A stretch of 58,965 nucleotides of DNA, taken from positions 1 to 58,965 of the forward strand of contig JAUSOY010000083.1 in assembly GCA_030656615.1 (NCBI GenBank). Reading direction: 5' to 3'. How positions within the stretch are numbered: position 1 is the first letter of the stretch; every line of letters begins with the position of its first letter. Source of the stretch: Bacteroidales bacterium (GTDB lineage: Bacteria; Bacteroidota; Bacteroidia; Bacteroidales; TTA-H9). Below are positions 4,823-18,488 of the stretch, in pieces. The position numbers and the translations under genes were made by a program. A model generated the notes under the pieces. It saw only the letters and a program-made list of their open reading frames with translations. It had not been told where the DNA came from and did no database searches.

Positions 4823-5617
4823 ATGAAAATAATGAGACGTGTTTTTGCCGGCCTTATAGTTCTTGCGGGAGTCGTGGCTTTGTATTCATTTGGGGGAGGA
4901 TACAAATATGCCGGAGGTTCACCCGCAGGATATACGGGTTCGCCATTCGACAATAAAAATTGTGTGCAATGCCACGGAGGCAGCGTGGGAACTGTTGTCA
5001 ATTGGATTACTTCTGATGTGCCCGCAGAAGGATACACCCCCGGTCAAACATATCTTATCTCTGTTAACGTTTCGGGTTCCGGTAAAAAAGGATTTTTGGT
5101 ATCACCGCATGATTTACAAGGAAATTTATTGGGTGTAATTCAAGCGGGGAGTGGGTGTAAATTGGTTGGTAGTGGAAAATACATTACCCAAGCAGCTTCT
5201 ACTTCAGCCAATCCTGCTGTTTGGTCATTTCAGTGGACAGCTCCTTCTGATCCTGTGGCAGAAATCACCTTTTATGGTGCCTTTACCGTTGGGAAATCAG
5301 TTACTAAATTGTCAACGATGACAATTGTCTTAAATACAACGGCCATCGCAGAAAGAAATATTAGTACGGGTGCTGCATATCCAAATCCGGTTCGGTCTTC
5401 TGTATTTTCGCTGCCGATAAAAAGCACGTATTCCGGAAGTATCCGTGTATTTCTGTATGATATAAAAGGCCGGAAGATTGCTTCTTTATATGATGGAAAA
5501 GTTATTGGAGGCGAAGACTTAATTTTTAATAGAGAAAATAGCTGGTTAACTGGTGTTTATATTTTGAGCATTGAGGCAAATGAGAATATTTGCGTTCAAA
5601 AATTGATATTTGATTGA
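4823..5617 (+). CDS. T9SS cargo with a CXXCH haem motif and a Reeler/choice-of-anchor V-like domain
   Basis: The 264-residue protein has a signal peptide, then a GSPAGYTGSPFDNKNC region ending in CVQCH (C47, C50, H51). A beta-sandwich region of about 120 residues follows (YTPGQTYLISVNVSGSGKKG..., VWSFQWTAPSD...), and a T9SS type A sorting domain closes it (AAYPNPVRSSVF... to ...CVQKLIFD). The segment order matches what I know as the choice-of-anchor V / Reeler-like family of Bacteroidetes, where a CXXCHG motif sits before the beta domain. CVQCH is the standard covalent haem c attachment motif, so this may be a monohaem cytochrome delivered to the cell surface. That is an inference; the motif might bind another metal. 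The stop codon overlaps an FNR-type site in front of the next gene. Confidence 0.75.
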   Translation: MKIMRRVFAGLIVLAGVVALYSFGGGYKYAGGSPAGYTGSPFDNKNCVQCHGGSVGTVVNWITSDVPAEGYTPGQTYLISVNVSGSGKKGFLVSPHDLQGNLLGVIQAGSGCKLVGSGKYITQAASTSANPAVWSFQWTAPSDPVAEITFYGAFTVGKSVTKLSTMTIVLNTTAIAERNISTGAAYPNPVRSSVFSLPIKSTYSGSIRVFLYDIKGRKIASLYDGKVIGGEDLIFNRENSWLTGVYILSIEANENICVQKLIFD

Positions 5618-5627
5618 TTTTTGTCAA
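5614..5627 (+). promoter_or_regulatory. FNR-type palindrome before the FNR-like gene
   Basis: TTGAT-TTTT-GTCAA is one base away from the TTGAC-N4-GTCAA palindrome found at two other loci in the window. A near-consensus -7 box (TAACTTTA, 5636-5643) lies 8 bases downstream, so the site would cover the -33 region. That position suggests negative autoregulation by the adjacent FNR-like protein. The site overlaps the stop codon of the preceding gene. Confidence 0.5.
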
Positions 5628-5692
5628 TTTATAGTTAACTTTAGGGAATGTTAATAACAGAAAACAGTATTAATTCTTATCCAAAACATCAT

Positions 5693-6388
5693 ATGGCGGA
5701 ACACATCCATCCAATCAATTGTTCGGATTGTATATGTAAGGCGGATTTGTTTTCCGACTTACCTCCGGACGATTTCGATATAATCTGCCGTACCAAGCAG
5801 GACGTAGAATTCAATGCCGGTGAAATTATTTTTAAACAAGGCGCTGTGCTTACCCATGTGGTATGCTTAACTCAGGGCCTTGCCAAGATCTATTTCGAAG
5901 GTATTGAGAAGAAAAATCTGATTCTTCGGCTGGTAAAACCATCTGAATTGGTGGGTGGGCCCGGAATGTTTGTCGACAGGCGACATCACTATTCCCTGGG
6001 TGCTGTGGCCGATTGCAAGGTTTGTTTTATTGATGTGGCAGCCTATCGCGAAGTCGTATTTAAAAATAAAAAGCTTGCCCATGAAGTGATGAACCGCGAA
6101 AGCCAACATCGCATCGAATTATATACAAAACTGGTTAATCTGACACAAAAACAGATGCCCGGAAGGATAGCTGAAGTTCTCATGTATCTGTATGGCGAAG
6201 TATATAATTCTACTAAGTTTAACTGTGCATTATCGCGGCAAGAAATTGCAGATTTATCGGCCATGTCGAAAGAAAGTGCTATCCGGATTTTAAAGGATTT
6301 TAAAGACGAGGGATACATTACCTTGGATGGAAACGATTTCGAAATTTTTAATGTAGAAGCTCTAGCACAGATAAGTAACCTAGGGTAA
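5693..6388 (+). CDS. Crp/Fnr-family transcription regulator, probably FNR-like
   Basis: This 231-residue regulator has an N-terminal cyclic-nucleotide-binding-type beta-roll (about residues 20-115), a dimerisation helix and a C-terminal winged helix-turn-helix (LSRQEIADLSAMSKESAIRI). The recognition helix keeps E and R in the ESAIR arrangement, equivalent to the base-contacting E and R of E. coli FNR (ETISR) and CRP (ETVGR). Cysteines at 10, 13 and 15 near the N terminus and at 108 and 111 echo the four FNR [4Fe-4S] ligands, so oxygen or redox sensing is plausible but unproven. ATG 5693 is preferred over the in-frame ATG 5648: the predicted transcription start is near 5650, and the cysteine cluster then lies close to the N terminus. 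FNR-type sites occur at its own promoter and before both multihaem loci. Confidence 0.8.
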   Translation: MAEHIHPINCSDCICKADLFSDLPPDDFDIICRTKQDVEFNAGEIIFKQGAVLTHVVCLTQGLAKIYFEGIEKKNLILRLVKPSELVGGPGMFVDRRHHYSLGAVADCKVCFIDVAAYREVVFKNKKLAHEVMNRESQHRIELYTKLVNLTQKQMPGRIAEVLMYLYGEVYNSTKFNCALSRQEIADLSAMSKESAIRILKDFKDEGYITLDGNDFEIFNVEALAQISNLG

Positions 6389-6411: not shown

Positions 6412-6446
6412 TTGACATTTGTCAATGTAAACCTGATCTTTGTCAA
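6412..6446 (+). promoter_or_regulatory. Tandem FNR-type sites before the hexahaem cluster
   Basis: Site A is a perfect palindrome, TTGAC-ATTT-GTCAA (6412-6425). Site B is CTGAT-CTTT-GTCAA (6433-6446), with 3/5 and 5/5 matching half-sites. Their centres (6418.5 and 6439.5) are exactly 21 bases apart, so both lie on the same DNA face. The better site is distal to the gene. A TAGTATTTTGG stretch near 6486-6496 might be a degenerate -7 box, which would put the sites near -62 and -83, an activator-like position. Confidence 0.6.
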
Positions 6447-6556
6447 TCATAAAGTGATTTCTTTCATTCATAATTAGTGGATTTCTAGTATTTTGGCGTT
6501 GATCTGTTACTAAAAAAACAGTAATATTGTATAAGTCGAACTAACACTAAATCTTT

Positions 6557-7606
6557 ATGAAGAGAATTACATTATTTTTAACAGTTATTGCTCTGTTTAT
6601 CGGATCAGCAGTGATGATAAACGGATGTACAAAAGAAGGCCCTCAGGGTCCTGCCGGTACCAATGGTACCAACGGTGTTGATGGTATAAATGGAACCGAT
6701 GGAACCGCTGCTTGCAGTGCTTGTCATAATTTCGGTACTACCGTTAAATCTGCGGTTACTCAATGGGAAGCTTCATTACATGCCACTGGTGGTCACTTTG
6801 ACCGGAATGGTACCTCATGTGCTCCATGTCATACCCACGAAGGTTTCCGCGAAACTTTTGCCACAGCTGCAACAGCTACTGCTGCGGCTATTGAAAATGC
6901 CACTCCCCCCAACTGTTACACCTGCCACGATGTACACAAAACGTACACCGCTGCTGACTGGACAATCGTTGGAAACGATGCTCATCCCTTATGGATTAAT
7001 GGTGTAAGCATTAATTTAGCATCCGGAAACAATTGTGCCCATTGCCATCAGGCTCGCATCCCTTCACCTACAGTTACTGTTGGTGGTGCTGATGTTGTTA
7101 TTACCTCTGACCGTTGGGGACCCCATTACGGTGGACAGTCACTCATTCTTTATGGTACAGGTGGATTCGAAATTGCTGGTAGCATGGCTTATCCTGCTGC
7201 TGGAAGTTATGTTCACGCAAAAGATGCCGGTTGTGTTAAATGTCATATGGCTCCTGCCTATGGAAATAAAGCCGGTGGTCATACCACAAAAATGTCGTAT
7301 GAGTACAATGGTGCAACCGTTCAGCATTTGGCTGGTTGTAAAGAATGCCATAGCACTATTACTACTTTCGACCACAACAGTCGCCAGACTGAAATCACTG
7401 CGCTTAAAGAAGAGTTGTTTAACAAACTGGTTGAAGTAGGTATTGGAGATCCCAGCCATGGTAGAAACAAAAAAGGAACTTTCACTGCTACCGTTGCCGG
7501 TGCTTATCTCAATTACGCATTGGTTAAGTATGATGCCAGTATGGGTGTTCATAACTATCCTTACACTTATGCACTGTTGAAAAACAGTCTTGAATCATTG
7601 CAGTAA
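6557..7606 (+). CDS. Hexahaem c-type cytochrome lipoprotein with a collagen-like linker
   Basis: This 349-residue protein has a lipoprotein signal (SAVMINGC, lipid cysteine C24) and a Gly-X-Y tract at about 28-49 (GPQGPAGTNGTNGVDG...). Six CXXCH motifs follow: CSACH (53-57), CAPCH (88-92), CYTCH, CAHCH, CVKCH and CKECH. It should be a periplasmic or surface-facing outer-membrane lipoprotein with six covalent haems. The collagen-like tract would act as a spacer from the membrane. It is the first gene after the tandem FNR-type sites and is followed by a terminator, so it may be transcribed at higher level than the genes after it. I cannot assign it to a named multihaem family. Electron transfer is the safe call; a catalytic role, such as nitrite or sulfur-compound reduction, cannot be excluded. 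Confidence 0.85.
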   Translation: MKRITLFLTVIALFIGSAVMINGCTKEGPQGPAGTNGTNGVDGINGTDGTAACSACHNFGTTVKSAVTQWEASLHATGGHFDRNGTSCAPCHTHEGFRETFATAATATAAAIENATPPNCYTCHDVHKTYTAADWTIVGNDAHPLWINGVSINLASGNNCAHCHQARIPSPTVTVGGADVVITSDRWGPHYGGQSLILYGTGGFEIAGSMAYPAAGSYVHAKDAGCVKCHMAPAYGNKAGGHTTKMSYEYNGATVQHLAGCKECHSTITTFDHNSRQTEITALKEELFNKLVEVGIGDPSHGRNKKGTFTATVAGAYLNYALVKYDASMGVHNYPYTYALLKNSLESLQ

Positions 7607-7621
7607 AATTCACAAAAATTC

Positions 7622-7655
7622 GGAAGGCTTCCGGCTTATGGGAGCCTTCCTTTTT
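7622..7655 (+). terminator. Intrinsic terminator after the hexahaem cytochrome
   Basis: GGAAGGCT (7622-7629) pairs with AGCCTTCC (7643-7650), with a 13-base loop and five T after it. The next gene begins only 21 bases later, so partial read-through is likely. Confidence 0.75.
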
Positions 7656-7675
7656 ATTTAACAAACTGTAAACGT

Positions 7676-8053
7676 ATGAAGTACAATCCTTTTAAATTAA
7701 TTTGCCTGGTGATGCTGATGTTTTCACTGGCTGCCTGCGAGTACGAATGGATAGAGGCCGAACCCATTCCACCTTTACCTCCGGAAGAAGTAAGTTTTCA
7801 AAATGAAATTATGCCATATTTTGATGCTAGTTGCAATATGGCGGGTTGTCATGCCACCGGCGGATTTAGTCCTGATCTTTCAGCAGCTAACGCGTATAAC
7901 GTCCTTACAACCAAAGGCTGGATAGATACCACCACTCCGGCAAACAGCAAAATCTATAAAGCTGTTACCTCGGGAAGTATGAAGACATTTAGCACAGCTA
8001 CTAATTCGGCTATTTTGCTAAAGTGGATCAAAGAAGGAGCAAAAAATAATTAA
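7676..8053 (+). CDS. Small lipoprotein with a CX4CH cytochrome-like motif
   Basis: This 125-residue lipoprotein (lipobox region FSLAAC) has a Pro-rich linker (IPPLPPEEV) and a single domain: FQNEIMPYFDASCNMAGCHA at the front and ILLKWIKEGAKNN at the end. That layout resembles the planctomycete-type cytochrome c domain (PSCyt1), in which a haem or haem-like site sits early and a WI-x-x-G helix ends the domain. Here the motif is CNMAGCH, with four residues between the cysteines instead of two, so attachment of haem c is possible but non-standard. It lies between the hexahaem lipoprotein and the beta-barrel gene and is probably part of the same complex. Confidence 0.7.
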   Translation: MKYNPFKLICLVMLMFSLAACEYEWIEAEPIPPLPPEEVSFQNEIMPYFDASCNMAGCHATGGFSPDLSAANAYNVLTTKGWIDTTTPANSKIYKAVTSGSMKTFSTATNSAILLKWIKEGAKNN

Positions 8054-8073
8054 GGATCGAAAAATACATTACT

Positions 8074-8943
8074 ATGAAACGAATAATACTGATTCTTTCT
8101 TTTTTCATTCTGCCTTTATCATATATTCTGGCACAGGATGAAGCTGAAACTCAAAGCGTACCGGTGAGAGCACCATTCGAAAGCGGCGTTCTTATCGATA
8201 ATCAAACGGTTCAAATCCCCACCAAGGGAACTCTGGAATTTCTGATTCATCATCGTTTCGGAATTGTAGATAATGGCATTACCGATTTATTTGGTATTTA
8301 TGCGCCCGGTGCCAATGTTCGTCTCGGACTCAATTATAGTCTGAGAGATAATCTAGTTGTTGGCTTCGGAACCACAAAAAATAAAAAGATGCAGGATTTC
8401 CAGTGGAAATGGCTCATCTTTGAACAGACCAGGGACTATAAATTTCCTGTTTCATTGGCGTATTACGGAAATTTTGCGATAGATGGCCGCTCCGATGATG
8501 CCTTCGGTATCAGTTATAAATTTGCCAATCGCTTTTCATTTTTTAATCAGCTGATTTTTTCTCATCGTATTAATGATATGATCAGTATTCAGGTTTCGCC
8601 AAGTTATACGCATTATAATATTGCAGATTCTGTGAGCGATCATGATAAAATAGGTGTTTCATTCAGTGGACGCGTTAAAATAAGCCCTCAATCATCTATT
8701 ATGATTCAGGCCGATATTCCACTGAAAATTAAAGGCATTTCAGAACAACTCGAGTTTACGAATCCTTCCAAGCCCAATTTTGGTATTGGTTGGGAAATTT
8801 CTACCAGCACACATGCTTTCCAGATTTATGCAGGCAGCGCTGCCGGCATTCTTCCACAGGAAATTATGATGAATAATCAGAATAATTTCTTCGATGGCGA
8901 CTTTATGATAGGTTTCACCATCACCCGTTTATGGAGTTTCTAA
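8074..8943 (+). CDS. DUF5777-like outer-membrane beta-barrel protein
   Basis: The 289-residue protein starts with a signal peptide (ILSFFILPLSYILAQ). It consists mainly of alternating amphipathic beta-strands and ends in ...FDGDFMIGFTITRLWSF, with the terminal phenylalanine typical of outer-membrane barrels. The N-terminal features TLEFLIHHRFG, LFGIYAPGANVRLGL and LVVGFGTTKNKK match my memory of the DUF5777 beta-barrel family of Bacteroidetes, which is often found near cytochromes. It follows the two lipoprotein cytochromes by 20 bases and precedes two small cytochromes c. This arrangement suggests an outer-membrane partner for the haem proteins, by analogy with porin-cytochrome conduits. That role is inference. 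Confidence 0.75.
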   Translation: MKRIILILSFFILPLSYILAQDEAETQSVPVRAPFESGVLIDNQTVQIPTKGTLEFLIHHRFGIVDNGITDLFGIYAPGANVRLGLNYSLRDNLVVGFGTTKNKKMQDFQWKWLIFEQTRDYKFPVSLAYYGNFAIDGRSDDAFGISYKFANRFSFFNQLIFSHRINDMISIQVSPSYTHYNIADSVSDHDKIGVSFSGRVKISPQSSIMIQADIPLKIKGISEQLEFTNPSKPNFGIGWEISTSTHAFQIYAGSAAGILPQEIMMNNQNNFFDGDFMIGFTITRLWSF

Positions 8944-8996
8944 AGTTTGGCTGGGTTTTTGCCTGTATTGTGGTATTAACCAACTAATTTTTTATT

Positions 8997-9407
8997 ATGA
9001 AAACCAGATTCTTGTCTTTTTTCGTTGTTTTCTTCGGAGCTGTATTACTGATGTCGTTTACCCCTCAGGATCAAAAGAAGGGTAGTGCCTGGGATATCCC
9101 GGCGAAATATCAGAAAATGAAGAATACAACGAAGGCGGATGACGCTTCATTGCTAAAAATTGGTAAAATGATGTGGGCAAAGCATTGCAAATCGTGCCAC
9201 GGGAGTGAAGGCAAAGGCGAGGGACCCAAAGCGAAGATGTTAAAGACTTCTATAGTCGATTTTACGGCTAAGGATTTTAAATCCAATGCCGATGGTTCTT
9301 TGTATTTTAAAAGCTTCGTTGGACGTGACGAAATGCCAAATTTTGAAAAGAAAATTACCAGCGAGGAAGATCGTTGGGCAATCATCAATTATATTAAAAC
9401 ACTATAA
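8997..9407 (+). CDS. Small monohaem c-type cytochrome, copy 1
   Basis: This 136-residue class I cytochrome c has a signal peptide (to about residue 25), CKSCH at 64-68 and a likely distal ligand M113 in DEMPNF. It ends with the usual C-terminal helix (DRWAIINYIKTL). It is a soluble periplasmic electron carrier. The next gene is a near-identical tandem copy. The cytochrome domain of the anchored protein at 31776-32699 has the same ending pattern (MPRF...DKWNIINYIRSL), so the three are related. Confidence 0.9.
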   Translation: MKTRFLSFFVVFFGAVLLMSFTPQDQKKGSAWDIPAKYQKMKNTTKADDASLLKIGKMMWAKHCKSCHGSEGKGEGPKAKMLKTSIVDFTAKDFKSNADGSLYFKSFVGRDEMPNFEKKITSEEDRWAIINYIKTL

Positions 9408-9514
9408 ACAAATTTCTTTTAAGCAGTTATTTCTGTTTTTAGGTAGTCGTTTTTATATTTTGGACTGATTTTTGAATTGTAAGTAATATTCATTTATTTA
9501 AATATACAACTATT

Positions 9515-9925
9515 ATGAAAACTCGAATTTTATCCGTTTTAGTCGTATTCTTCGGAGCTGTTTTGTTGATGTCGTTTACACCACAGGATCAAAAAAAGGG
9601 TGGTGCATGGGATATTCCAGCAAAATACCAGAAGATGAAAAATCCTACAAAGGCTGATGATGCATCGCTCCAGAAAATTGGAAAAATGATGTGGGCAAAG
9701 CATTGTAAATCATGCCACGGTGGTAATGGCGAAGGCGATGGCCCCAAAGCCAAGCAGCTGAAAACCTTCCCCGGCAATTTCACATCAAAAGATTTTAAAG
9801 CAAATTCAGATGGTGCTCTTTATTTTATGAGCTTTGTTGGCCGCGATGAAATGCCAAACTTCGAAAAGAAGTTAACCACCGAAGAAGATCGTTGGGCTAT
9901 TGTTAATTACATTAAAACCTTTTAA
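9515..9925 (+). CDS. Small monohaem c-type cytochrome, copy 2
   Basis: This is a tandem paralog of the preceding gene, also 136 residues. It has the same signal peptide, CKSCH (64-68), DEMPNF ligand motif and C-terminal helix (DRWAIVNYIKTF). Differences are concentrated between the haem site and the ligand loop (for example KQLKTFPGNFTSKDF against KMLKTSIVDFTAKDF). Two copies suggest either gene dosage or two partners. A strong terminator follows and ends the cluster. Confidence 0.9.
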   Translation: MKTRILSVLVVFFGAVLLMSFTPQDQKKGGAWDIPAKYQKMKNPTKADDASLQKIGKMMWAKHCKSCHGGNGEGDGPKAKQLKTFPGNFTSKDFKANSDGALYFMSFVGRDEMPNFEKKLTTEEDRWAIVNYIKTF

Positions 9926-9951
9926 TCAGATTATTCTATAAAGGTTCGACG

Positions 9952-9986
9952 AAAGCGGCTTCCTATTTATAGGGGGCCGCTTTTTT
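9952..9986 (+). terminator. Intrinsic terminator ending the cytochrome/barrel cluster
   Basis: AAAGCGGC (9952-9959) pairs with GCCGCTTT (9976-9983), followed by T to 9986. It closes the unit that runs from the FNR-type sites at 6412. Confidence 0.85.
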
Positions 9987-10251
9987 GTGTATTAGCGACT
10001 GTTTTTAGTGATTAGCAATATCAATAATTGATGCAGGACTTGTTTGTATATAGAGCAATCAGGTTTGAATAACGAGAGTGAATATTTGTTTTCCATAACT
10101 TTTTGCGACAAGCAGATAACTATCTAAAAATCAAATTGTACCTTTTTAATATTCGGTGTTGCATATCGATTCGTAAGTTTGTCTGCAAATGTGATGCAGA
10201 AGTTGGGCGTATATTTGAAATTGTAAAAATCATAGTGATTCCCTCAATGGC

Positions 10252-10459
10252 ATGAAATCGATAAGCGGCTTTACATTGCCATACGGAAGATTGAAAATTA
10301 AAGAGACTACCCAAATTATTTCTTAAACAAGGTAATACTATATTGAATTGGCCTGATAATTCTGCCTGTAGCTTATTACATCGGAGTAGATTAATCAAAA
10401 ATGAAATTCCAGAACTATCTTCCACTGAAATTTATGACTTTTCTTTAAGTGAGTATTAA
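10252..10459 (+). pseudogene. Possible decayed ORF with one frameshift
   Basis: A reading frame from ATG 10252 (MKSISGFTLPYGRLKIKE...) stops at 10326. A second frame that overlaps it continues (RLPKLFLKQGNTILNW... to ...STEIYDFSLSEY) and stops at 10459. The second piece has protein-like composition and a natural-looking C terminus, so the pair may be the remnant of a gene broken by a frameshift. Nothing is recognisable. The 9987-10251 stretch before it contains only a short palindrome (ATCAATAATTGAT, 10020-10032). Confidence 0.2.
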
Positions 10460-10460
10460 A

Positions 10461-10493
10461 TACTTTCTTTTCCCTACGGGCAAAAAGAAAGTA
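10461..10493. repeat. Strong hairpin next to a 13-T run
   Basis: TACTTTCTTTT (10461-10471) is perfectly complementary to AAAAGAAAGTA (10483-10493). The inner CCC (10472-10474) and GGG (10478-10480) extend the stem around TAC, with a 2-base bulge. A run of 13 T follows at 10502-10514. On the plus strand it could terminate transcription. Similar CTTTCTTTT/AAAAGAAAG hairpins are, from memory, common between genes in this phylum. Confidence 0.5.
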
Positions 10494-10519
10494 TCAAAGA
10501 ATTTTTTTTTTTTTCGCTC

Positions 10520-10698
10520 TGAGCCTGTTACCTGAATTACTACGGAATTCCTCCCTAGCGCAACCCAAGCCGTTCAGGTGAATAGGTCTTTGATTTTAGT
10601 AATGGTTTATCATCCCTCACTCGTGGGTTGCTTTACGGGCAGGAATACTCATTCAGGAGCTTGGGGCGAAATTCTTTGAATGCATGGCAACAGGCTCA
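10520..10698. repeat. Structured inverted-repeat element of about 180 bases
   Basis: The element is bounded by a perfect 10-bp inverted repeat, TGAGCCTGTT (10520-10529) and AACAGGCTCA (10689-10698). Inside are GCAACCCA (10560-10567) with TGGGTTGC (10624-10631), ACCTGAA (10530-10536) with TTCAGGT (10573-10579), and the palindrome GGAATTCC (10544-10551). It is visibly richer in G and C than its surroundings and has no open frame. It may be a structured RNA, a MITE-like repeat or the trace of a mobile element. The stretch 10699-10948 shows nothing further that I can name. Confidence 0.5.
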
Positions 10699-10948
10699 AA
10701 TGCTTCATGGTAACACAAAGCGGGACCGCTCTTTTCTTGCAAAAATTGTGAAGTAATGGTTTTTATAGCAGCGTATAAATTATTTGTGTGGAGCATTCAA
10801 AATTACGACTCACAATCATGGATACAGAGCAATCTAAATTAAACGCATTATTATTGAGGTGATGAAATGTGGAAAACAGAAAGAAGTGACTCGAAGGCAA
10901 TTTCACTGAGAGAGCCAATTACAGTCCCTGATCAATTATAACAAATAA

Positions 10949-10982
10949 GGGCAAAAGAAGCAGATGTCTACTTCTTTTGCCC
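10949..10982 (-). terminator. Intrinsic terminator of the minus-strand NrfD operon
   Basis: A perfect 12-bp stem joins GGGCAAAAGAAG (10949-10960) and CTTCTTTTGCCC (10971-10982) around a 10-base loop. On the minus strand it lies 27 bases after the stop codon of the last operon gene and is followed by a T-rich stretch. Confidence 0.75.
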
Positions 10983-11009
10983 CATGGACTAACAGCTTAA
11001 TAGTCGCTG

Positions 11010-11921
11010 TTATTTTCCTGATTTTTTCTCGATTTGTGTGCCTTCTTGGCGTATAAAAAGGAGTTGGACTATGGCGTACATATAATGCGACCATACCCCA
11101 ATGAGAAGAATTGTCAAGGTGACAATCATCCAAACGGGTGCTCCACGAGTCCAAAGAGTGCGCGAAGGCTCGGTATAATCGCTGCTTCGGTGGGTTCCCC
11201 AGGTAGCTTTTTCAATGGCCATGGCCGAGCCATACTCGGAATGGTCTTCCAGACTGGCGAAGATTGTTAGATTACCTACTTCGTCGCCGTTCAGATCTGA
11301 AGGAAATTCAAAGGTGCATTCACCATTATCCATCCAGCCATCACCAATTTTTAACCGGCTGAACAGACCCTGAATATAGAAGTAAATGTCGCTTTCCATT
11401 ACCGGTATGTCTTCATTATTCGGTCCTATGCCCATGGCACTTACCTCTATAGACTTTACACCATCTTCATCGATAAGTTTCATCGAAAACCGAACATCTT
11501 TAAATTCGAGCGTTTCTTCAGCTCCATCCAGTGCAGCGGTTGCTTCAAAAACGATATTGAGCTTTACAGTTCCCTCTTTATCGCGAAGGAGCTTTTGATC
11601 GGGCTGAATTATGAAGGTGGTTTTACCCTGGGCATTGGTCAGGGATTTACCGAGTAGAATTTTTTCGGTGTCGAGTGTGGTGTAGTATAAAATTTCACCT
11701 TTTAATACAGGAAGCTCATCACTTTCACCACTCGCTAGTAGTGTAGCTGTCACGGTTCGGCTACCATCACCGTTTTTAAGTGTGCTGATTTCGAGTGAAG
11801 TGCTGTAGAATACATCCTCCTGAGCGAAAACTTTCGTTATCGGGATGAAAGTAATAACAAGCAAAATAAGCCATATTACCCTTATCCTTAACATTGTATA
11901 TCTTTTCATGTTTGTAGTCAT
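11010..11921 (-). CDS. Membrane-anchored beta-domain protein of the NrfD module
   Basis: The 303-residue protein has an N-terminal signal peptide (to about residue 34), a periplasmic region of repeated beta-rich Ig-like segments, and a C-terminal membrane helix (VWMIVTLTILLIGVWSHYMY) with a short cytoplasmic tail. It is homologous to the C-terminal half of the protein at 31776-32699. Compare GECTFEFPSDLNGDEVGNLT with GEVEVDFPGSLPGDSIGNVL, and the shared GVW...Y membrane helix. In that protein the same anchor carries a cytochrome c domain, which is absent here. It is the last gene of the operon, 14 bases after NrfD, and is probably a structural or docking subunit of the FeS/NrfD complex. No named family recognised. 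Confidence 0.7.
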   Translation of the reverse strand: MTTNMKRYTMLRIRVIWLILLVITFIPITKVFAQEDVFYSTSLEISTLKNGDGSRTVTATLLASGESDELPVLKGEILYYTTLDTEKILLGKSLTNAQGKTTFIIQPDQKLLRDKEGTVKLNIVFEATAALDGAEETLEFKDVRFSMKLIDEDGVKSIEVSAMGIGPNNEDIPVMESDIYFYIQGLFSRLKIGDGWMDNGECTFEFPSDLNGDEVGNLTIFASLEDHSEYGSAMAIEKATWGTHRSSDYTEPSRTLWTRGAPVWMIVTLTILLIGVWSHYMYAIVQLLFIRQEGTQIEKKSGK

Positions 11922-11935
11922 TTTAATGGATGGGG

Positions 11936-13315
11936 TTAATCTTCGTAAAGCGAACTTTTGACGTCATCTTTATCAGCTAATTCTCTGATATGTTTGAATC
12001 TGGAAGCTTCTTCCTGTTCGGCATCCACAACTTCCGAAATGGGAATTATAGGAATAAGTTTTGAGGCAACTGTAAACAGAAGACAGAAAAAGGCGATGCC
12101 CCCGAAGGTTAGCACATATTCGATCCAGGTAGCCCCGTAAAAAATGTATTCGGGGCGGGTGTCCTGAATAGGCATGTATGGAGTTTCTAGGGTAGGAACA
12201 ACAATCAGGTAGCGGTTCATCCATAATGCTGCTACAGCAATAGCCGCGGCGATGGTAATTGAATTGATGGTTCTGAATTTTGGGATGCCGAGGACAATAA
12301 TGGGTAGCAGTGTTCCAAAATAGTTCGCCAGGATAAATTCCCAGAAATACCTTGTAAATAAAACATTGATCAGGTCGTCGTCGAGTTTCTTGGAACCGTA
12401 CCATTTTGTGAGATATTCACTAAAAGTGAAATAAGCGAAAAACATTGCAAGGACCATCATGATAATTCCAACGCCAACGAAGTGTCTCTTGGTGATATAT
12501 TTTTCGAGGTGATAAACCCTACGGAAAACCCGCATGATTATAATCATCGCACCGGCTCCGCTAAATACGGCAGCAATTACAAAATATGGTCCGAAGATAG
12601 TAGAGTGCCACCCGGGCTGAAGGGTAACACTAAAAATCCATGCCAAAACAGAGTACACAATAATTGCAATGGCAATAATCATGGCCGACATAATGTTGGT
12701 GACATTTTTAATACGTTTCTGTTGACTGGGGGTATTATAATAGCCCAGGGCAAGAAAGGTGTAAAGCTTAACTCTCCACTCCGGGAGTTTAAGGCCTTTA
12801 GCCGCGTCGCGCATGAGTGCAAAGTCGCGAATAAATGATAGCCATAAATAGATTAAGCAGCCAAAAAGGTCAGTGGTAATGGCTATTACGTCCCATGTTA
12901 TTGGTGATTGTATCCGTGGATACAGGAATAGGAAATGCAAACGGTCTAAACGCCCGATACATAGCAGAATGTATAAGGGTCCGATGGAAAGGGCTATAAT
13001 GGTAATAAGTTCCCCAATCCGGAGTATAGGTCCTCTCCAGGGTGTTTTAAACAGGTGCATGGTGCCCGAAATAAGAGCACCTGCATAGCTTAATCCCATG
13101 AAGAATATGAAATTAACGATGTATATACCCCAAACCACATTATCACGCATACCAGTAATAACGTGACCTTTAATTATTTGTAATATTAGTGCATACACAC
13201 TCAATAATACTGCCAATACTAAAAAGATCATCCATGCCATACTCAATTTGCTTGTTTTGAGTAATTGAGGCGAAAATTCTTTCAGTAACTCGAGTTTTCG
13301 GTTTTCTGTATTCAT
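11936..13315 (-). CDS. NrfD/PsrC-like membrane quinol oxidoreductase subunit (module 1)
   Basis: This 459-residue polytopic protein has about ten hydrophobic helices and motifs of the NrfD/polysulfide reductase C family: MRDNVVWGIYIVNFIFFMG near the N terminus, IGRLDRLHFLFLYPRIQSP, and TLQPGWHSTIFGPYFVIAAV. Members oxidise or reduce menaquinol in the membrane and exchange electrons with an FeS partner in the periplasm. That partner is encoded 8 bases upstream (13324-14319). A second, related pair occurs at 29428-31766. No molybdopterin catalytic subunit is encoded nearby, so electrons probably pass to cytochromes, not to a Mo enzyme. The direction of electron flow cannot be read from the sequence. 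Confidence 0.88.
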   Translation of the reverse strand: MNTENRKLELLKEFSPQLLKTSKLSMAWMIFLVLAVLLSVYALILQIIKGHVITGMRDNVVWGIYIVNFIFFMGLSYAGALISGTMHLFKTPWRGPILRIGELITIIALSIGPLYILLCIGRLDRLHFLFLYPRIQSPITWDVIAITTDLFGCLIYLWLSFIRDFALMRDAAKGLKLPEWRVKLYTFLALGYYNTPSQQKRIKNVTNIMSAMIIAIAIIVYSVLAWIFSVTLQPGWHSTIFGPYFVIAAVFSGAGAMIIIMRVFRRVYHLEKYITKRHFVGVGIIMMVLAMFFAYFTFSEYLTKWYGSKKLDDDLINVLFTRYFWEFILANYFGTLLPIIVLGIPKFRTINSITIAAAIAVAALWMNRYLIVVPTLETPYMPIQDTRPEYIFYGATWIEYVLTFGGIAFFCLLFTVASKLIPIIPISEVVDAEQEEASRFKHIRELADKDDVKSSLYED

Positions 13316-13323
13316 GAGACGGA

Positions 13324-14319
13324 TTATTTAGAATCTTCTTTGGATTTCTTATCTTTCATGTAAGGCACATTATTGTAGCGTTCGGCAACTTCTTCATCCA
13401 AATCGTTTAATCCACGATCGATGGGGAATTGACGATTAACCGGAGGTAGATAATATACACTGGGCTGAGTACCTAAATCTTCAAGATGTCTGTATCCTGC
13501 TCTGTTTTTAATCAGTTCGGAGAAGCGGATGGTTTCATCACCATTGGTAACAATATCTTCCAGTATATCACCATAATATATAACACCCATAGGACAGGAA
13601 GAAACACAATATGGCAATTTGCCTTCACGTACCAAATCAGGGCAGAAATCACATTTACTAACGGTACCTTCTACTCCAGGCACACTGGTTTCGGGCGAAT
13701 AAGGCTGGTCTTTTCCTAGTTCGAATTGCGGATAGTGCTCCCAATTGAAAACCCTAGCAGAATATGGACATCCGGTCATACAGAATTTACAACCAATGCA
13801 TCGTTCATTATCTATTAATACGATCCCATCACTTCGTTTATATGTAGCACCAACCGGGCAAACACTTACACATAGAGGTTTGTCACAATGAAAACAGGGC
13901 TTTGGAAACCAATAAGGTGCCGAATCTTTCGATTCCTGCATCATGTAAACCTTCATAAATTCCTGATGGGGCGGAAGATTATGCCCCTTTTGGCATTTTT
14001 CTACACAGGCACGGGCATTTTTGCATTTTGCCAAATCGATCACCATTACAAATTTACGATGTGGAATTCCCTGACGGGCAGCGGCAGGTGAGATATATTC
14101 CTGGCCTTCGGAAGGGTAAACGTGGGTTTTATCCACTTCCACAAGTTTACCGTCGGGGGTGAGGAGGCGCATTTTTTCGCCTGAAGTTTGCTCTTCTTCA
14201 GCACTTGCCAGCCTCGAAATGACGGATGCTCCTGCCAATGCCGATATCCCTGATATGATTCCCATTTTCAGAAATTTCCGGCGATCGGTTGATTGGTTTT
14301 TCAAATCTTCATTTTCCAT
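13324..14319 (-). CDS. Tat-exported ferredoxin-type FeS subunit (module 1)
   Basis: The 331-residue protein has a twin-arginine signal (DRRKFLK, R13-R14) and cysteine groups typical of the NrfC/PsrB/DmsB electron-transfer subunits. The groups are CKNARACVEKC, CFHCDKPLCVSVCP, CIGCKFCMTGCP and CDFCPDLVREGKLPYCVSSCP. The first group has only three cysteines: the usual second ligand is alanine (CKNA). One cluster may therefore be [3Fe-4S] or have another ligand, as in the iron-sulfur domain of alternative complex III subunit ActB. It would sit on the periplasmic side bound to the NrfD protein encoded next. A gap of 91 bases with a terminator-like hairpin separates it from the cytochrome b gene upstream. 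Confidence 0.9.
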   Translation of the reverse strand: MENEDLKNQSTDRRKFLKMGIISGISALAGASVISRLASAEEEQTSGEKMRLLTPDGKLVEVDKTHVYPSEGQEYISPAAARQGIPHRKFVMVIDLAKCKNARACVEKCQKGHNLPPHQEFMKVYMMQESKDSAPYWFPKPCFHCDKPLCVSVCPVGATYKRSDGIVLIDNERCIGCKFCMTGCPYSARVFNWEHYPQFELGKDQPYSPETSVPGVEGTVSKCDFCPDLVREGKLPYCVSSCPMGVIYYGDILEDIVTNGDETIRFSELIKNRAGYRHLEDLGTQPSVYYLPPVNRQFPIDRGLNDLDEEVAERYNNVPYMKDKKSKEDSK

Positions 14320-14372
14320 AGTGATGTGAACTTATAATGATATATGTAGTTAAGTACATGGGTTGAGATAAA

Positions 14373-14400
14373 AAGATAACCCTGCTCAGAGGGTTATCTT
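14373..14400 (-). terminator. Terminator-like hairpin inside the minus-strand operon
   Basis: AAGATAACCCT (14373-14383) pairs perfectly with AGGGTTATCTT (14390-14400) around a 6-base loop. On the minus strand it is followed by more T. It lies 10 bases after the cytochrome b stop codon and before the FeS gene, so it may end or attenuate transcription between the cytochrome pair and the FeS-NrfD unit. Confidence 0.65.
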
Positions 14401-14410
14401 AATCGCGATA

Positions 14411-15028
14411 TTATTTTGAAACATGCCAGCCGTCGATCATCGACTTGAAATTGATATAGAAGGTAGCTCCAATGGTGCAAAAATACACGTGAATGATTAG
14501 GAAAGCGGAGACTAAAAAGGCCATAACAACATGAAGCAAATCAGCCCAAAAAATGCCACCCAATCCAAATATATTATGAATTACGATACCAGGGAAAAGA
14601 AGTCCCCAGCCCGATAGAATTAAAACGGGCAAAAACACATACATGGCCAACACATAAGTGAATCTTTGCAGAGGATTAAATTTATTTTCGGCAGTAATGG
14701 GAAATGGGGAGGTTTTTCCTGTGAACATTCCCCAGGTATAATAAATTAATTGGGTAGTGATTCGATTAAATAATCCTTTGATATGGAGGTAATAATGCAC
14801 CACGTTTTTTGTATAAATGTTGGAAATGATGAACCAGATATAAGTAAGAGTCAATAATATCCCGGCAACATTATGAATGCTGACCGCTAAATCGAATCGC
14901 ATCAGAGGATATTCCAAGTTTGAATATTGAAGGCTTGCGCCTGTAAATATCAGCGTTAGGATCAACAGGGCATTACATCCATGCCAAAGCCTGATAATAA
15001 GTGGGTATAGATAAATACGTCCAGACAT
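14411..15028 (-). CDS. Membrane cytochrome b (cytochrome b561 / FdnI-like)
   Basis: This 205-residue membrane protein has four or five helices and histidines placed as haem b ligands: RLWHG in helix 1, VSIHNVAG in helix 2, and DLLHVVMAF and LIIHVYFC in the last two helices. The pattern fits the bacterial cytochrome b561/dihaem gamma-subunit superfamily (PF01292-like), which links the quinone pool to periplasmic redox proteins. It begins 3 bases after the heptahaem cytochrome gene, so the two are almost certainly cotranslated partners: cytochrome b in the membrane and a multihaem c outside. Confidence 0.82.
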   Translation of the reverse strand: MSGRIYLYPLIIRLWHGCNALLILTLIFTGASLQYSNLEYPLMRFDLAVSIHNVAGILLTLTYIWFIISNIYTKNVVHYYLHIKGLFNRITTQLIYYTWGMFTGKTSPFPITAENKFNPLQRFTYVLAMYVFLPVLILSGWGLLFPGIVIHNIFGLGGIFWADLLHVVMAFLVSAFLIIHVYFCTIGATFYINFKSMIDGWHVSK

Positions 15029-15031
15029 ATG

Positions 15032-16012
15032 CTATTTTTTTATAATAATTCGTAATAAAACATGAATTGCAATTCCCCCGAAAGCCAACATCATAAAAAC
15101 AATGCTGATAACATTCAGGTAATAATTCCGGTTAGCTCCAATAACGAAGGTATCGCCAAGGATGGCACCGTTAAAAAAGCCGAGCTTACTTCGTTCTTCT
15201 TTTGCTCTGAATTTGTAGAGTGTTGTCATTAATATCGAATTCTGTGAATGACATTCCACACATTTTTTCACGGCTTGAGCTTTCGGACGAATCTTGTGAG
15301 CGACCAGTACATCATTGGTGACTTCTGTATGGCACTCGATGCATCGTACACTGCTGAAATGAACCTTCTGATTGGGTAACCAATCATGGCTGGTCACAAC
15401 ATTCGGGTTAATATTATCAGTAAGTAACTGATACTTATCTAAATTAGCATGACAACTTAAACAGATACTGTTATCGTAAGCAATAATCTCTTTGATGTTT
15501 TCTGTTGTACGTGCATTAATCTTGTAACTGTGGGGATCGTGACACATCCAGCAAGAAAAATCCTCACTAAAAGAATTAGAATGAACACTTTCACCAAACT
15601 CCCTATCGATTTCCTCAAAGTTGAATTTGGCATAATTTTCATCACCGCCATGACAGTCCATGCAGGTCGATTTGGGCTCCATGCGCAGTTCACCGGAATG
15701 CGGGAAGTTTAAATACTCTTCCGAATGGCAATCGGTACAACGAAAACTTTTGTGATTGGAAACATAATACTCTTCAGGATTTACTTGATGTTCAGAACAC
15801 ATTCGATGCCTTTCAACCTTTTCGGTCATCGTATTCTCAAAAGTATACTTGCTTTTGGAATGGCACTTTAAACATTCCTGATTGTCGATTTTTACCGATT
15901 CATCAACGTCGGGAAACTGACCATCTTTCAATTCCCCGGCAGCAACCAGCACTGAAATTATCAGTATCGAAAGCAGGAAGGGCTTTTTGATTTTTGATAG
16001 AATTGAACTCAT
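15032..16012 (-). CDS. Heptahaem c-type cytochrome anchored in the inner membrane
   Basis: This 326-residue protein has an N-terminal hydrophobic signal/anchor (FLLSILIISVLVAAG) and seven CXXCH motifs in order: CLKCH, CTDCH, CMDCH, CWMCH, CLSCH, CIECH and CVECH. A C-terminal membrane helix (VISIVFMMLAFGGIAIHVLL) and a basic tail complete it. Both ends anchor it with the haem domain in the periplasm. Many free histidines (for example SVHSNS, VTSHDW, VAHKI) could give bis-His ligation. It is the first gene of the operon under the tandem FNR-type sites at 16257-16291. It probably accepts electrons from the cytochrome b encoded next, from the FeS/NrfD pair, or from both. Confidence 0.88.
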   Translation of the reverse strand: MSSILSKIKKPFLLSILIISVLVAAGELKDGQFPDVDESVKIDNQECLKCHSKSKYTFENTMTEKVERHRMCSEHQVNPEEYYVSNHKSFRCTDCHSEEYLNFPHSGELRMEPKSTCMDCHGGDENYAKFNFEEIDREFGESVHSNSFSEDFSCWMCHDPHSYKINARTTENIKEIIAYDNSICLSCHANLDKYQLLTDNINPNVVTSHDWLPNQKVHFSSVRCIECHTEVTNDVLVAHKIRPKAQAVKKCVECHSQNSILMTTLYKFRAKEERSKLGFFNGAILGDTFVIGANRNYYLNVISIVFMMLAFGGIAIHVLLRIIIKK

Positions 16013-16256
16013 AAGATTTTATACGTATTATTGGATTCGCTTATAAATTTACAATAATTGTAGAAAGTTTTCAGGAGACTTTCAGAGCATTTATTGAAGT
16101 TCGTTTGTTTGTCAGTCTAACGATACTTTGTGCAGTTTTCATACCTTTTACAAAGAAGTTTTGGCTTTTCACTTCTAACACCCACGCCCATATACAAAGA
16201 ACGGAATTTCGGTTGAAATTTTATAGTATGTTTTTCCGAAACAAAATCGCTATTGA

Positions 16257-16291
16257 TTGATATTAATCATGCTGTGATTGACATTTATCAA
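16257..16291 (-). promoter_or_regulatory. Tandem FNR-type sites between the heptahaem operon and ccmB
   Basis: Site C is TTGAT-ATTA-ATCAT (16257-16270) and site D is TTGAC-ATTT-ATCAA (16278-16291). The centres, 16263.5 and 16284.5, are exactly 21 bases apart, as at 6412-6446. Read toward the minus-strand operon, the better site is distal and the weaker proximal, again as at the hexahaem locus. The proximal centre lies 251 bases before the heptahaem start codon and site D lies 237 bases before ccmB, so the regulated promoter is not certain. The rest of the 509-base gap shows one candidate promoter element for ccmB. Confidence 0.6.
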
Positions 16292-16521: not shown

Positions 16522-17181
16522 ATGGTAATACATCAATTAAAAATATTATTACTGAAAGACATCCGTCTTGAATTGAAGCAAAAATATGCCATCAATGGGA
16601 TATTGCTTTATGTTCTTTCAACGGTGTTTGTTTCATTTTTATCCTTTGAACGAATTCTGGACGGAAAAACATGGAATGCCCTTTTTTGGATAATTCTGTT
16701 ATTTTCTGCCGTTAACGCGGTCAGTAAGAGTTTTGTGCAAGAAGGTCAGCCACGACAGTTGTATTATTATACCATTGTTAGTCCATTGGCCTTAATACTT
16801 TCTAAAATTCTTTATAATGCCTTACTGATGGGTATTATTTCACTTCTATGTTTTGGAGCCTTCGTGGTGTTTCTGGGTAATATGGTCGAGAGTACACCTT
16901 TGTTTCTCTTCACGATACTATTGGGTGGATGGGGATTTTCGGGTGTATTAACCATGGTTTCGGCCATTGCATCGCGTACCAGCAATAATTTTGCCTTGAT
17001 GGCGATTCTGAGTTTTCCGGTGGTTTTACCGATTTTGCTTATTGTAATGAAAGTTACAAATGCTGCTTTAAATGGTGGCGGTTTCGCTGACAACTGGAGT
17101 CCTTTGATGGCTTTGTTCTTGCTCAATATTATGATAGCAGCGCTGGCTTCGGTATTGTTTCCTTATTTATGGAAGGATTAG
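16522..17181 (+). CDS. ccmB: Haem exporter protein CcmB
   Basis: The 219-residue protein has six hydrophobic helices and the CcmB pattern. A cytoplasmic LLLKDIRLELKQKY start is followed by SFERILDGKTWNALFWIILL, then SFVQEGQPRQLYYYTIVSP and a Gly-rich SGVLTMVSAIASRTSNN segment. CcmB is the membrane part of the CcmAB transporter that, with CcmC, loads haem on to CcmE in System I cytochrome c maturation. The ATPase gene ccmA is not in the window. The order ccmB-C-D-E follows, with gaps of 48, 16 and 19 bases. Confidence 0.92.
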   Translation: MVIHQLKILLLKDIRLELKQKYAINGILLYVLSTVFVSFLSFERILDGKTWNALFWIILLFSAVNAVSKSFVQEGQPRQLYYYTIVSPLALILSKILYNALLMGIISLLCFGAFVVFLGNMVESTPLFLFTILLGGWGFSGVLTMVSAIASRTSNNFALMAILSFPVVLPILLIVMKVTNAALNGGGFADNWSPLMALFLLNIMIAALASVLFPYLWKD

Positions 17182-17229
17182 CGGTCAACATTATGACTGT
17201 TTCCTTGTTATTGAACTAAACGTTTGTAT

Positions 17230-17910
17230 ATGGAATTTAAAAAAAACTGGTGGAAATATCTTGGGGGATTATTAATCCTGTACTCTATCATAGCGGGGCT
17301 TTTGATGAAAGTGCCTGAGTTACCGATTATTCGTGAAAGTATTCGTAACCTGTTCTTTCATGTTTGTATGTGGTTTGCCATGATTGCTATTATGGGCGTT
17401 TCGGCAGTACAAAGCATTATGTATCTGCGAAATATGAAACGTGAAACCGACATCGCGGCCTCAGAAGCTGCCTTTACAGGTTTGCTTTTTGGATTTCTGG
17501 GAATTACTACCGGAATGATTTGGGCAAATTTTACCTGGGGAACTCCCTGGACGAACGATCCACAATTAAACGGTGCAGCGGTAAGTATACTCATCTACCT
17601 CGCATACGCAGTTCTCCGGAGCAGTATTGATGAAGAGCAGAAGCGAGCAAGGATTTCTGCCGTGTACAATGTTTTTGCTTTCGTGCTTTTTATTGTTTTT
17701 GTGGGCGTGTTGCCACGCATGGCGGCGGCATCCATTCATCCCGGAAAGGGTGGAAATCCTGCACTGGGTGCTACCTCACTCGATAGCATGATGCGTCTGG
17801 TATTTTATCCTGCAATTATAGGATGGATCATTGTTGCAATCATTATATGGAATATTCGCCGTCGCCTTAAAATGGCACAGATGGCTCAAATGGAAATGGA
17901 AGAAGAATAA
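17230..17910 (+). CDS. ccmC: CcmC-type haem-handling membrane protein
   Basis: This 226-residue six-helix protein matches CcmC/CcsA. It has NLFFHVCMWFAMIAIMGVSA (a haem-ligand histidine next to a membrane helix), the tryptophan-rich segment WANFTWGTPWTNDPQLNGAA in place of the usual WGTxWxWDxRLT, and ASIHPGKGGNP with the second histidine. CcmC presents haem to CcmE on the periplasmic face. A TTG lies two codons upstream of the chosen ATG at 17230; the ATG is more likely. The NDPQ sequence is a departure from the usual WDxR core. Confidence 0.88.
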   Translation: MEFKKNWWKYLGGLLILYSIIAGLLMKVPELPIIRESIRNLFFHVCMWFAMIAIMGVSAVQSIMYLRNMKRETDIAASEAAFTGLLFGFLGITTGMIWANFTWGTPWTNDPQLNGAAVSILIYLAYAVLRSSIDEEQKRARISAVYNVFAFVLFIVFVGVLPRMAAASIHPGKGGNPALGATSLDSMMRLVFYPAIIGWIIVAIIIWNIRRRLKMAQMAQMEMEEE

Positions 17911-17926
17911 GAAAAGAACAAAAGAT

Positions 17927-18058
17927 ATGGAAAATAAAATGTTCGTCGTCGTGGCTGTTATGAGCCTGATTTTTATCGGAGTTTTTGTGTATCTGCTGTA
18001 TCTCGATCGTAAAACGTCAAAACTCGAGAAATACTACAAATCACAGAAAAAGGATTGA
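17927..18058 (+). CDS. CcmD-like small membrane protein
   Basis: The 43-residue peptide has one membrane helix (FVVVAVMSLIFIGVFVYLLY) followed by a charged tail (DRKTSKLEKYYKSQKKD). Size, topology and position between ccmC and ccmE fit CcmD, which helps release haem-loaded CcmE. ATG 17927 is chosen over an in-frame start inside ccmC because it lies 16 bases after the ccmC stop codon. Sequence similarity alone would not identify so short a protein. Confidence 0.75.
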   Translation: MENKMFVVVAVMSLIFIGVFVYLLYLDRKTSKLEKYYKSQKKD

Positions 18059-18077
18059 CTTAATAATTTGACAGAAA

Positions 18078-18488
18078 ATGAAAACTAAACATATTATCAT
18101 CTTGCTTATAGCTGTTTTGGCAGTTGGTGTTATCATAACAACCTTCGCTGATGCCAGTACATATACCAATTTTAGTGATGCCGCCAAACATCCTACTAAG
18201 GAGTTTCATGTAATAGGTAAGTTAAAAACAGATATGCCTGTAACCTACGATCCGTCAAATCCTGATTATCTTGATTTTTATCTGACAGACGATAAAGGGA
18301 ATGTAAAAAAAGTGGTGTATCATGGTGCCAAACCTCAGGATTTTGAAAAATCGGAGCAGGTTGTACTCACGGGGTATATGGATAATGATGAGTTTCAGGC
18401 GACAGGAATGTTATTAAAATGTCCTTCGAAGTATAATGATCAGGAAAAGCCGGAGGCATTTGAGAACAAGACTTACGGAACCAATTAG
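18078..18488 (+). CDS. ccmE: CcmE haem chaperone of the CXXXY type
   Basis: This 136-residue protein has an N-terminal membrane anchor (HIIILLIAVLAVGVIITTF) and an OB-fold beta domain (KEFHVIGKLKTD..., DFYLTDDKGN, VVLTGYMDNDEFQATGMLLK). It ends in CPSKY (C115, Y119). Classical CcmE binds haem through His in HxxxY; here cysteine replaces the histidine (CxxxY). This matches the variant described for Desulfovibrio-type and archaeal CcmE in systems reported to lack CcmH. It receives haem from CcmABC and passes it to CcmF, which is not encoded here. A strong terminator follows. Confidence 0.9.
   Translation: MKTKHIIILLIAVLAVGVIITTFADASTYTNFSDAAKHPTKEFHVIGKLKTDMPVTYDPSNPDYLDFYLTDDKGNVKKVVYHGAKPQDFEKSEQVVLTGYMDNDEFQATGMLLKCPSKYNDQEKPEAFENKTYGTN

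Follow-up and report, generated by a model that had tools for sequence, protein, structure and literature searches.

The 58,965-nucleotide stretch analysed here (the window: contig JAUSOY010000083.1 of assembly GCA_030656615.1, from a Bacteroidales bacterium) encodes an FNR-like regulator and carries, upstream of a hexahaem and of a heptahaem cytochrome gene, short rows of FNR-type palindromes spaced by two helical turns. We consider it probable (roughly 0.72) that the regulator, these phased operators and a Bacteroidota-type promoter act together in the anoxic activation of a multihaem gene cluster. According to this scheme, the regulator would bind FNR-type operators that follow each other every 21–22 bp along the same DNA face, and the row of operators, placed upstream of the promoter, would activate a conserved multihaem electron-transfer cluster under anoxia. 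One strong palindrome would nucleate binding, and weaker neighbours, of which often the promoter-proximal half alone is kept, would be filled through contacts between adjacent dimers, resulting in a steep switch. In the genome to which the window belongs, the hexahaem and heptahaem units would each be served by phased sites, and the regulator gene by a site of its own. The elements concerned are the following, operators being compared with TTGAYNNNNRTCAA and scored out of 10.

5614-5627, + strand: exact FNR-type site before the regulator gene, TTGATTTTTGTCAA, with a 7/10 partner at 5635-5648
5693-6388, + strand: FNR-like regulator of CRP/FNR fold (Pfam cNMP_binding and HTH_Crp_2), with C-x2-C near the N-terminus and a C122-equivalent cysteine
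6412-6425, + strand: operator A of the hexahaem array, TTGACATTTGTCAA, 0 mismatches to TTGAYNNNNRTCAA, 10/10
6433-6446, + strand: operator B of the hexahaem array, CTGATCTTTGTCAA, 1 mismatch, 9/10, 21 bp from A
6454-6467, + strand: operator C of the hexahaem array, GTGATTTCTTTCAT, 7/10, 21 bp from B
6557-7606, + strand: hexahaem lipoprotein-like cytochrome with collagen-like N-terminal repeats, 6 CXXCH
15032-16012, - strand: heptahaem cytochrome, first gene of the second unit, 7 CXXCH
16257-16270, - strand: operator B of the heptahaem array, TTGATATTAATCAT, 1 mismatch, 9/10, 21 bp from A
16278-16291, - strand: operator A of the heptahaem array, TTGACATTTATCAA, 0 mismatches, 10/10

Three exact matches to TTGAYNNNNRTCAA occur in the window (5614, 6412 and 16278), compared with a mean of 0.54 in dinucleotide shuffles, of which 2/200 contain at least three. 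The window has two exact sites that are joined, 21 bp away, by a second site with at most one mismatch; no such combination arises in the 200 shuffles. When spacing is ignored, sites with at most one mismatch are present at chance level (13 observed vs 13.85 expected), so that weak sites are meaningful through spacing and conservation alone. The site at 5614-5627 is a candidate for autoregulation of the regulator gene. A preliminary description of this DNA had listed the four paired sites and a third one adjoining the FNR-like gene, and the sequence bears out all five coordinates (the third site lying before the gene), the 21-bp centre-to-centre distance of both pairs, the strong-distal, weak-proximal order at both loci and the six and seven CXXCH motifs of the two cytochromes. 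Other parts of it need amendment. Its agreement of 13/14 bases between the strong sites holds on the + strand and falls to 11/14 when the two are read in the direction of their respective cytochrome genes; the TTGAC-N4-GTCAA pattern which it gave to all four paired sites is strict at 6412 and not at the other three; and its unit of two dimers, from which operator C was absent, is replaced by a conserved pattern of up to four positions, A to D, in a 21–22 bp register.

Conservation was assessed in the 300 bp upstream of hexahaem orthologues (366 relatives found, 80 loci kept from named records, one of them with only 193 bp). An exact site is present in 26/80 (0.25 expected from shuffles) and a site with at most one mismatch in 49/80 (7.5 expected), and a 300-bp stretch inside the same hexahaem genes contains an exact site in 0/80. 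Conservation before orthologous genes, on which the regulon had been made to depend in the preliminary description, is thus found. L203, a second lineage in which the hexahaem and heptahaem units have promoters of their own, as in the window, carries a 21-bp pair at each. Most relatives are metagenome assemblies that are related to each other, and the only near-duplicates taken out were those recognised by 80% identity over 54 bp (spacing set) or by shared 12-mers (registration set). As a separate observation, the regions upstream of four hexahaem genes (L061, L064, L091 and L094) contain candidate operators that read YCGAY-N4-RTCGR in place of TTGAY-N4-RTCAA, which may reflect a change of specificity; where the regulator is in the locus, a comparison of the recognition helices by eye gave no consistent change, and a specificity switch was not retained.

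The spacing of the sites was determined in 43 non-redundant promoters, each anchored on its best single 14-mer, the flanks being scanned for second sites of at least 7/10 (from 49, 5 near-duplicates were dropped, as was L133, by choice, its site being unusually close to the gene). Second sites occur at -21 in 10/43, at +21 in 8/43, at +22 in 7/43 and at +43 in 11/43, with lesser counts of 4 at -28, +42 and +44. In 500 dinucleotide shuffles of the flanks, the highest count at any offset is 6, and 0/500 reach the counts of the four main offsets. A second site lies 21–22 bp to either side in 21/43 promoters, compared with 5/43, 3/43 and 3/43 for control spacings of 16–17, 26–27 and 31–32 bp, respectively. 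Promoters were also registered on reference site B (6 near-duplicates and L071, which has a short upstream region, dropped from 81); as registration had not fully settled (3/74 rows still moving per round), the spacing claim rests on the single-site-anchored scans. In 48 registered promoters, position D, the most downstream one, keeps the promoter-proximal TCA in 39 and the TGA half in 9, counts which lean towards the pattern because registration used the columns of position D.

The array is also placed at a conserved distance from a promoter element. The -7 box consensus of Bacteroidota is TAnnTTTG (PMC7366714; this and the other papers cited by PMC number are represented by extracts). With at most one mismatch, it is found 86–94 bp downstream of B in 34/48 registered promoters, in columns that lie outside those used for registration. 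Single-site anchors give 7/42 at 89 bp, 5/42 at 90 bp and 12/42 at 91 bp, for a mean of 0.65 per offset (20–149), and a smaller peak of 5 at 112 bp, which is one further 21-bp step. The combined TTG-N20-TAnnTTTG element, with two mismatches allowed, peaks at 66–68 bp. The window's hexahaem promoter contains both elements:

6499-6501, + strand: candidate -33 element TTG, 20 bp before the -7 box (consensus from PMC7366714)
6522-6529, + strand: candidate -7 box TAATATTG, one mismatch to TAnnTTTG, 89 bp from B, a distance conserved in orthologues

TAATATTG corresponds, with one mismatch, to the -7 box of sigma-ABfr (Bacteroidota) promoters; of the TTTG that these have near -33, TTG is present at 6499-6501. 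We estimate that the hexahaem promoter lies at 6499-6529 and that transcription starts near 6533, the hexahaem ATG being at 6557. Taking 6412 as position B was rejected, as the -7 box is then not at the conserved distance. All these results point to an array of probably up to four operators, in a 21–22 bp register and at a fixed distance from the -7 box; cooperative binding of dimers is plausible.

Could the sites nevertheless be ordinary single FNR/CRP sites, with 21-bp partners arising by chance or as a by-product of A+T-rich intergenic DNA? The chance number of sites with at most one mismatch in the window is what such an explanation predicts, and the genome of the window (3.56 Mb, 90 contigs, 96.8% complete) provides a further argument for it. 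The single consensus occurs there in 30 places (10 for the reversed pattern), and outside the window most of its 27 exact matches are coding (21, inside a mechanically called open reading frame (ORF) of at least 80 amino acids (aa), vs 6 intergenic); no gene with at least four CXXCH motifs was found to flank or surround any of these 27. A single-site regulon was therefore rejected for this genome. Pairs behave differently: 21-bp pairs with at most one mismatch number two in the whole genome, both being those of the window, and with up to three mismatches there are 14 places vs 0 for the reversed pattern. The preliminary description had proposed a small regulon from sequence alone, to be abandoned if its sites were as frequent in coding DNA; this goes against the single consensus and leaves the phased pairs standing, and it is probably the phased pairs, not single sites, that define the regulon in this genome.

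In this genome the regulon is not a general multihaem one, as no intergenic site with at most one mismatch was found beside the multihaem genes of three other regions of the same genome, which were retrieved with Pfam PF14522 only and do not form an exhaustive list: an NrfA gene with a NapC/NirT-type neighbour (Pfam), a four-haem gene followed (as judged by eye) by iron-sulphur (FeS) and NrfD-like genes, and an 11-haem gene. A search of the genome with Pfam PF13435 was negative. As side observations, a second regulator paralogue (L259; G000 C57) lies about 3 kb from the 11-haem gene and from iron-sulphur/NrfD-like genes, and two looser 21-bp pairs in the window, at 1914-1948 (2 mismatches) and 4328-4362 (3 mismatches), fall inside ORFs with type IX secretion system (T9SS) tails (341-2263 and 2836-4677), apparently at a similar peptide stretch. 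Both are taken as chance, the former being the third 21-bp pair of the genome.

The most direct evidence on the single-site explanation comes from a scan for exact 21-bp core pairs in 393 genomes of the order, made blind to gene content. Such pairs occur in 52/393 genomes (reversed pattern, 4), in-frame 24-bp control pairs in 27/393 (reversed, 7) and out-of-frame 26-bp control pairs in 4/393, the last control not being a fair one for coding DNA, since 21 is divisible by three and 26 is not. The pairs were then sorted, leaving out three tandem-repeat genomes (G136, G325 and G097) and the window's own two pairs; a pair counted as coding inside a mechanically called ORF of at least 100 aa, so that those of G047 and G225, inside ORFs of 76 and 81 aa, were counted as intergenic. 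The 55 pairs at 21 bp outside the window's genome divide into 29 coding and 26 intergenic ones; 17/26 of the intergenic and 0/29 of the coding pairs lie beside a regulator or multihaem gene. The 24-bp control divides into 25 coding and 2 intergenic pairs and the 26-bp control into 2 of each kind, none beside such genes. Between 21 and 24 bp, the intergenic share (Fisher, p 0.0004) and the gene association (p 0.0008) both differ. Coding 21-bp pairs, no commoner than coding 24-bp ones (29 vs 25), are thus background, as the single-site explanation would have it, whereas the excess is intergenic (26 vs 2), and the pair claim rests on the intergenic pairs. The 24-bp control thereby makes the intergenic result clearer and the raw genome count weaker. 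Together with partner counts that exceed those of all 500 flank shuffles, this makes the single-site explanation very unlikely.

The regulator gene flanks 14 of these 17 intergenic pairs. Pairs also match beyond the spacers between regulator and hexahaem genes, namely at a 16-haem gene (L196), at six-haem genes with a NapC/NirT domain (L192 and L204) and at an eight-haem gene (L222) beside a distant relative of the regulator. That the array is kept across many Bacteroidales before the same multihaem genes, often beside the FNR-like regulator gene, suggests a common anaerobic switch.

The regulator itself (start at 5693 chosen by alignment, the ORF running from 5648) is a member of the CRP/FNR fold, with a cNMP-type sensor domain and a Crp-type helix-turn-helix, a combination common to CRP and others. 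Its AlphaFold2 model (pLDDT 88.5) aligns with holo-FNR of Aliivibrio fischeri, wild type and variants, over 222–224 residues with Z 24.7–25.4. As the Porphyromonas protein 2gau (Z 26.4) and cAMP receptor proteins align equally well, the fold alone does not single out FNR. The cluster cysteines of FNR are C20, C23, C29 and C122. Ten of 23 homologues (picked by hand, the window's included and two cysteine-lacking ones left out) were aligned with Escherichia coli FNR: C20, C23, C122 and R213 show no variation, E209 is retained in at least 90%, and in all 23 homologues the equivalents of C20, C23 and C122 are present in 22, 21 and 22, respectively. C29 is absent, and with one of the four cluster cysteines missing the regulator is not filed as FNR. 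The sites and the recognition residues E209 and R213 fit predicted binding to the FNR-type consensus TTGAT-N4-ATCAA (PMC1274295). We infer that the regulator binds these sites, presumably cooperatively, that it may sense oxygen or redox state through a cluster, and that its binding would activate. A search of 99 genomes, the window's own included, gave a match at E 1e-10 in 87. Of the best loci of 29 relatives (L017-L045), 13 have a hexahaem gene nearby and 4 more a monohaem lipoprotein; weaker matches are paralogues with other neighbours.

Several observations weigh against the proposed activation scheme. The raw total of the order-wide scan (52/393) is not striking alone, as in-frame 24-bp coding pairs reach 27/393, and 9/26 intergenic 21-bp pairs lie away from regulator and multihaem genes. 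No site within one mismatch is present in 31/80 hexahaem promoters. C29 is not conserved among the 10 aligned regulators. Position D is not recognisable in the window's hexahaem array, and the heptahaem array has two sites, a third in register not being found; nor was a heptahaem -7 box within one mismatch found at the expected distance in either direction. With the heptahaem ATG about 245 bp away and ccmB about 231 bp away, this array could serve the heptahaem unit, ccmB or both. Finally, with estimated positions of about -51 to -116, the operators are further upstream than the classical FNR site at -41.5.

Two further points of this kind raise the question of which protein binds: the own genome contains five regulator-like matches, another of which may bind, and sites within one mismatch are present in 20/47 hexahaem loci that lack a regulator-like gene in the fetched stretch. 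The array could thus be real and be bound by another CRP/FNR paralogue, HcpR-like or carbon-sensing, rather than by the product of the neighbouring gene. The HcpR motif of delta-proteobacteria, wyTTGACnnnnGTCAArw (PMC1274295), and the CRP/FNR homologues predicted to be MalR-like carbon sensors in bins of Ignavibacteria, Flavobacteriales and Saprospiraceae (PMC8510549) are in line with it. On the other hand, the regulator flanks most of the blind-found pairs beside regulator or multihaem genes, and the equivalents of E209 and R213 are kept. Regulator and site also co-occur: 33/80 hexahaem loci contain the regulator-like gene, and 29/33 of these have the site, vs 20/47 without (Fisher p 5e-5, a test confounded by descent, the 47 including other phyla and short contigs). 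We consider binding by another paralogue unlikely.

FNR-family proteins can both activate and repress, and position alone does not fix the sign, so that the bound regulator could also switch the genes off. The sites found do not, however, overlap the candidate -33 and -7 elements, and respiratory cytochromes of this kind are usually needed without oxygen; repression is, in our view, quite unlikely. The activation scheme might be taken further in a joint proposal that we regard as possible, if doubtful. The array would be an undescribed CRP/FNR architecture, in which four dimers two helical turns apart, through in-phase bends, loop about 80 bp of promoter DNA, and the three-cysteine Bacteroidota FNR would act as the threshold switch of a respiratory chain that is multihaem, possibly extracellular, and common to Bacteroidales.

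The other genes of the two units and their neighbours, from mechanically called ORFs, are:

7676-8053, + strand: small lipoprotein-like protein; most labelled orthologues have one CXXCH, the window copy none
8074-8943, + strand: DUF5777 membrane beta-barrel protein
8997-9407, + strand: monohaem cytochrome c
9515-9925, + strand: second monohaem cytochrome c
11010-11921, - strand: 303-aa protein, also behind the NrfD gene in L131, L230 and L054
11936-13315, - strand: NrfD/DsrP-like membrane subunit
13324-14319, - strand: DsrO-like iron-sulphur subunit
14411-15028, - strand: cytochrome b561-type membrane subunit
16522-18488, + strand: ccmB, ccmC and ccmE (cytochrome c maturation), divergent from the heptahaem unit, with a common intergenic region

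Larger loci usually have the order hexahaem, monohaem lipoprotein, DUF5777 barrel, often a monohaem cytochrome, heptahaem, cytochrome b and a tail, and in the window's genome the hexahaem and heptahaem parts of this cluster form two separate units. Three types of tail are found: FeS, NrfD and 303-aa protein (window, L131, L230); a 500-aa six-haem protein with a NapC/NirT domain (L226, L221, L062); or a 19-haem plus a 4-haem protein (L204, L111). The tail thus appears to be exchanged between three electron-transfer modules (L226, L131, L204). The 303-aa protein has no Pfam or NCBIfam match at E 0.001. The 7676-8053 lipoprotein has CX4CH in place of the CXXCH usual in labelled orthologues, and its haem attachment is uncertain. 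Behind the DUF5777 gene, two 136-aa monohaem cytochromes c (8997-9407 and 9515-9925) stand in tandem, and the ccm genes, which share their intergenic region with the heptahaem array, might be co-regulated. The cluster looks like one that couples the oxidation of menaquinol to haem chains of the periplasm or the outer membrane; that it performs extracellular electron transfer would be a guess.

In our judgement, little is known of how environmental Bacteroidota control their genes under anaerobic conditions, and most of their multihaem clusters are uncharacterised. A conserved unit of regulator, operators and targets would help to establish when these bacteria turn to multihaem respiration, and the phased row offers a natural test of cooperation between CRP/FNR dimers. 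In a limited search of the open-licence literature, we found no description of such a regulon or phased array.

How does this system compare with known ones? OmpR- and PhoB-type operator rows take up dimers every two helical turns at strong and weak sites, and the array would work like them, with a regulator of an unrelated protein family. By its gene content, the cluster can be likened to that of Bacteroidetes_1 from a bioanode community, in which six multihaem cytochromes and one beta-barrel are proposed to carry out extracellular electron transfer and whose regulation is not described in the extract (PMC8258643). Shewanella omcA and mtrC, under CRP control, also associate a CRP/FNR-family protein with multihaem cytochromes, there of the outer membrane, but the phylum and the cytochromes differ and the extract gives a single putative site, at about -61, for each promoter (PMC4417206). 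The HcpR regulon resembles the present system in a CRP/FNR-family regulator adjoining its target and, in some HcpR groups, in a TTGACnnnnGTCAA operator, whereas HcpR targets are hcp and frdX and phased arrays are not described for HcpR in the extract (PMC1274295). The tandem CRP class III promoter of Vibrio tfoX has sites at -84.5 and -41.5, 43 bp apart (PMC4595672): both promoters would receive multiple dimers of one CRP/FNR-family activator, predicted here from the sites, but tfoX has two sites, the proximal one at -41.5, whereas the array has up to four adjacent 21–22 bp repeats, none overlapping the candidate -33 element. FNR of E. coli and A. fischeri has the CRP/FNR fold, the TTGAT-N4-ATCAA-type site and the equivalents of C20, C23, C122, E209 and R213 in common with the present system, which departs from it by a regulator without C29 and by up to four helically phased operators, further upstream, at a promoter of sigma-ABfr type.

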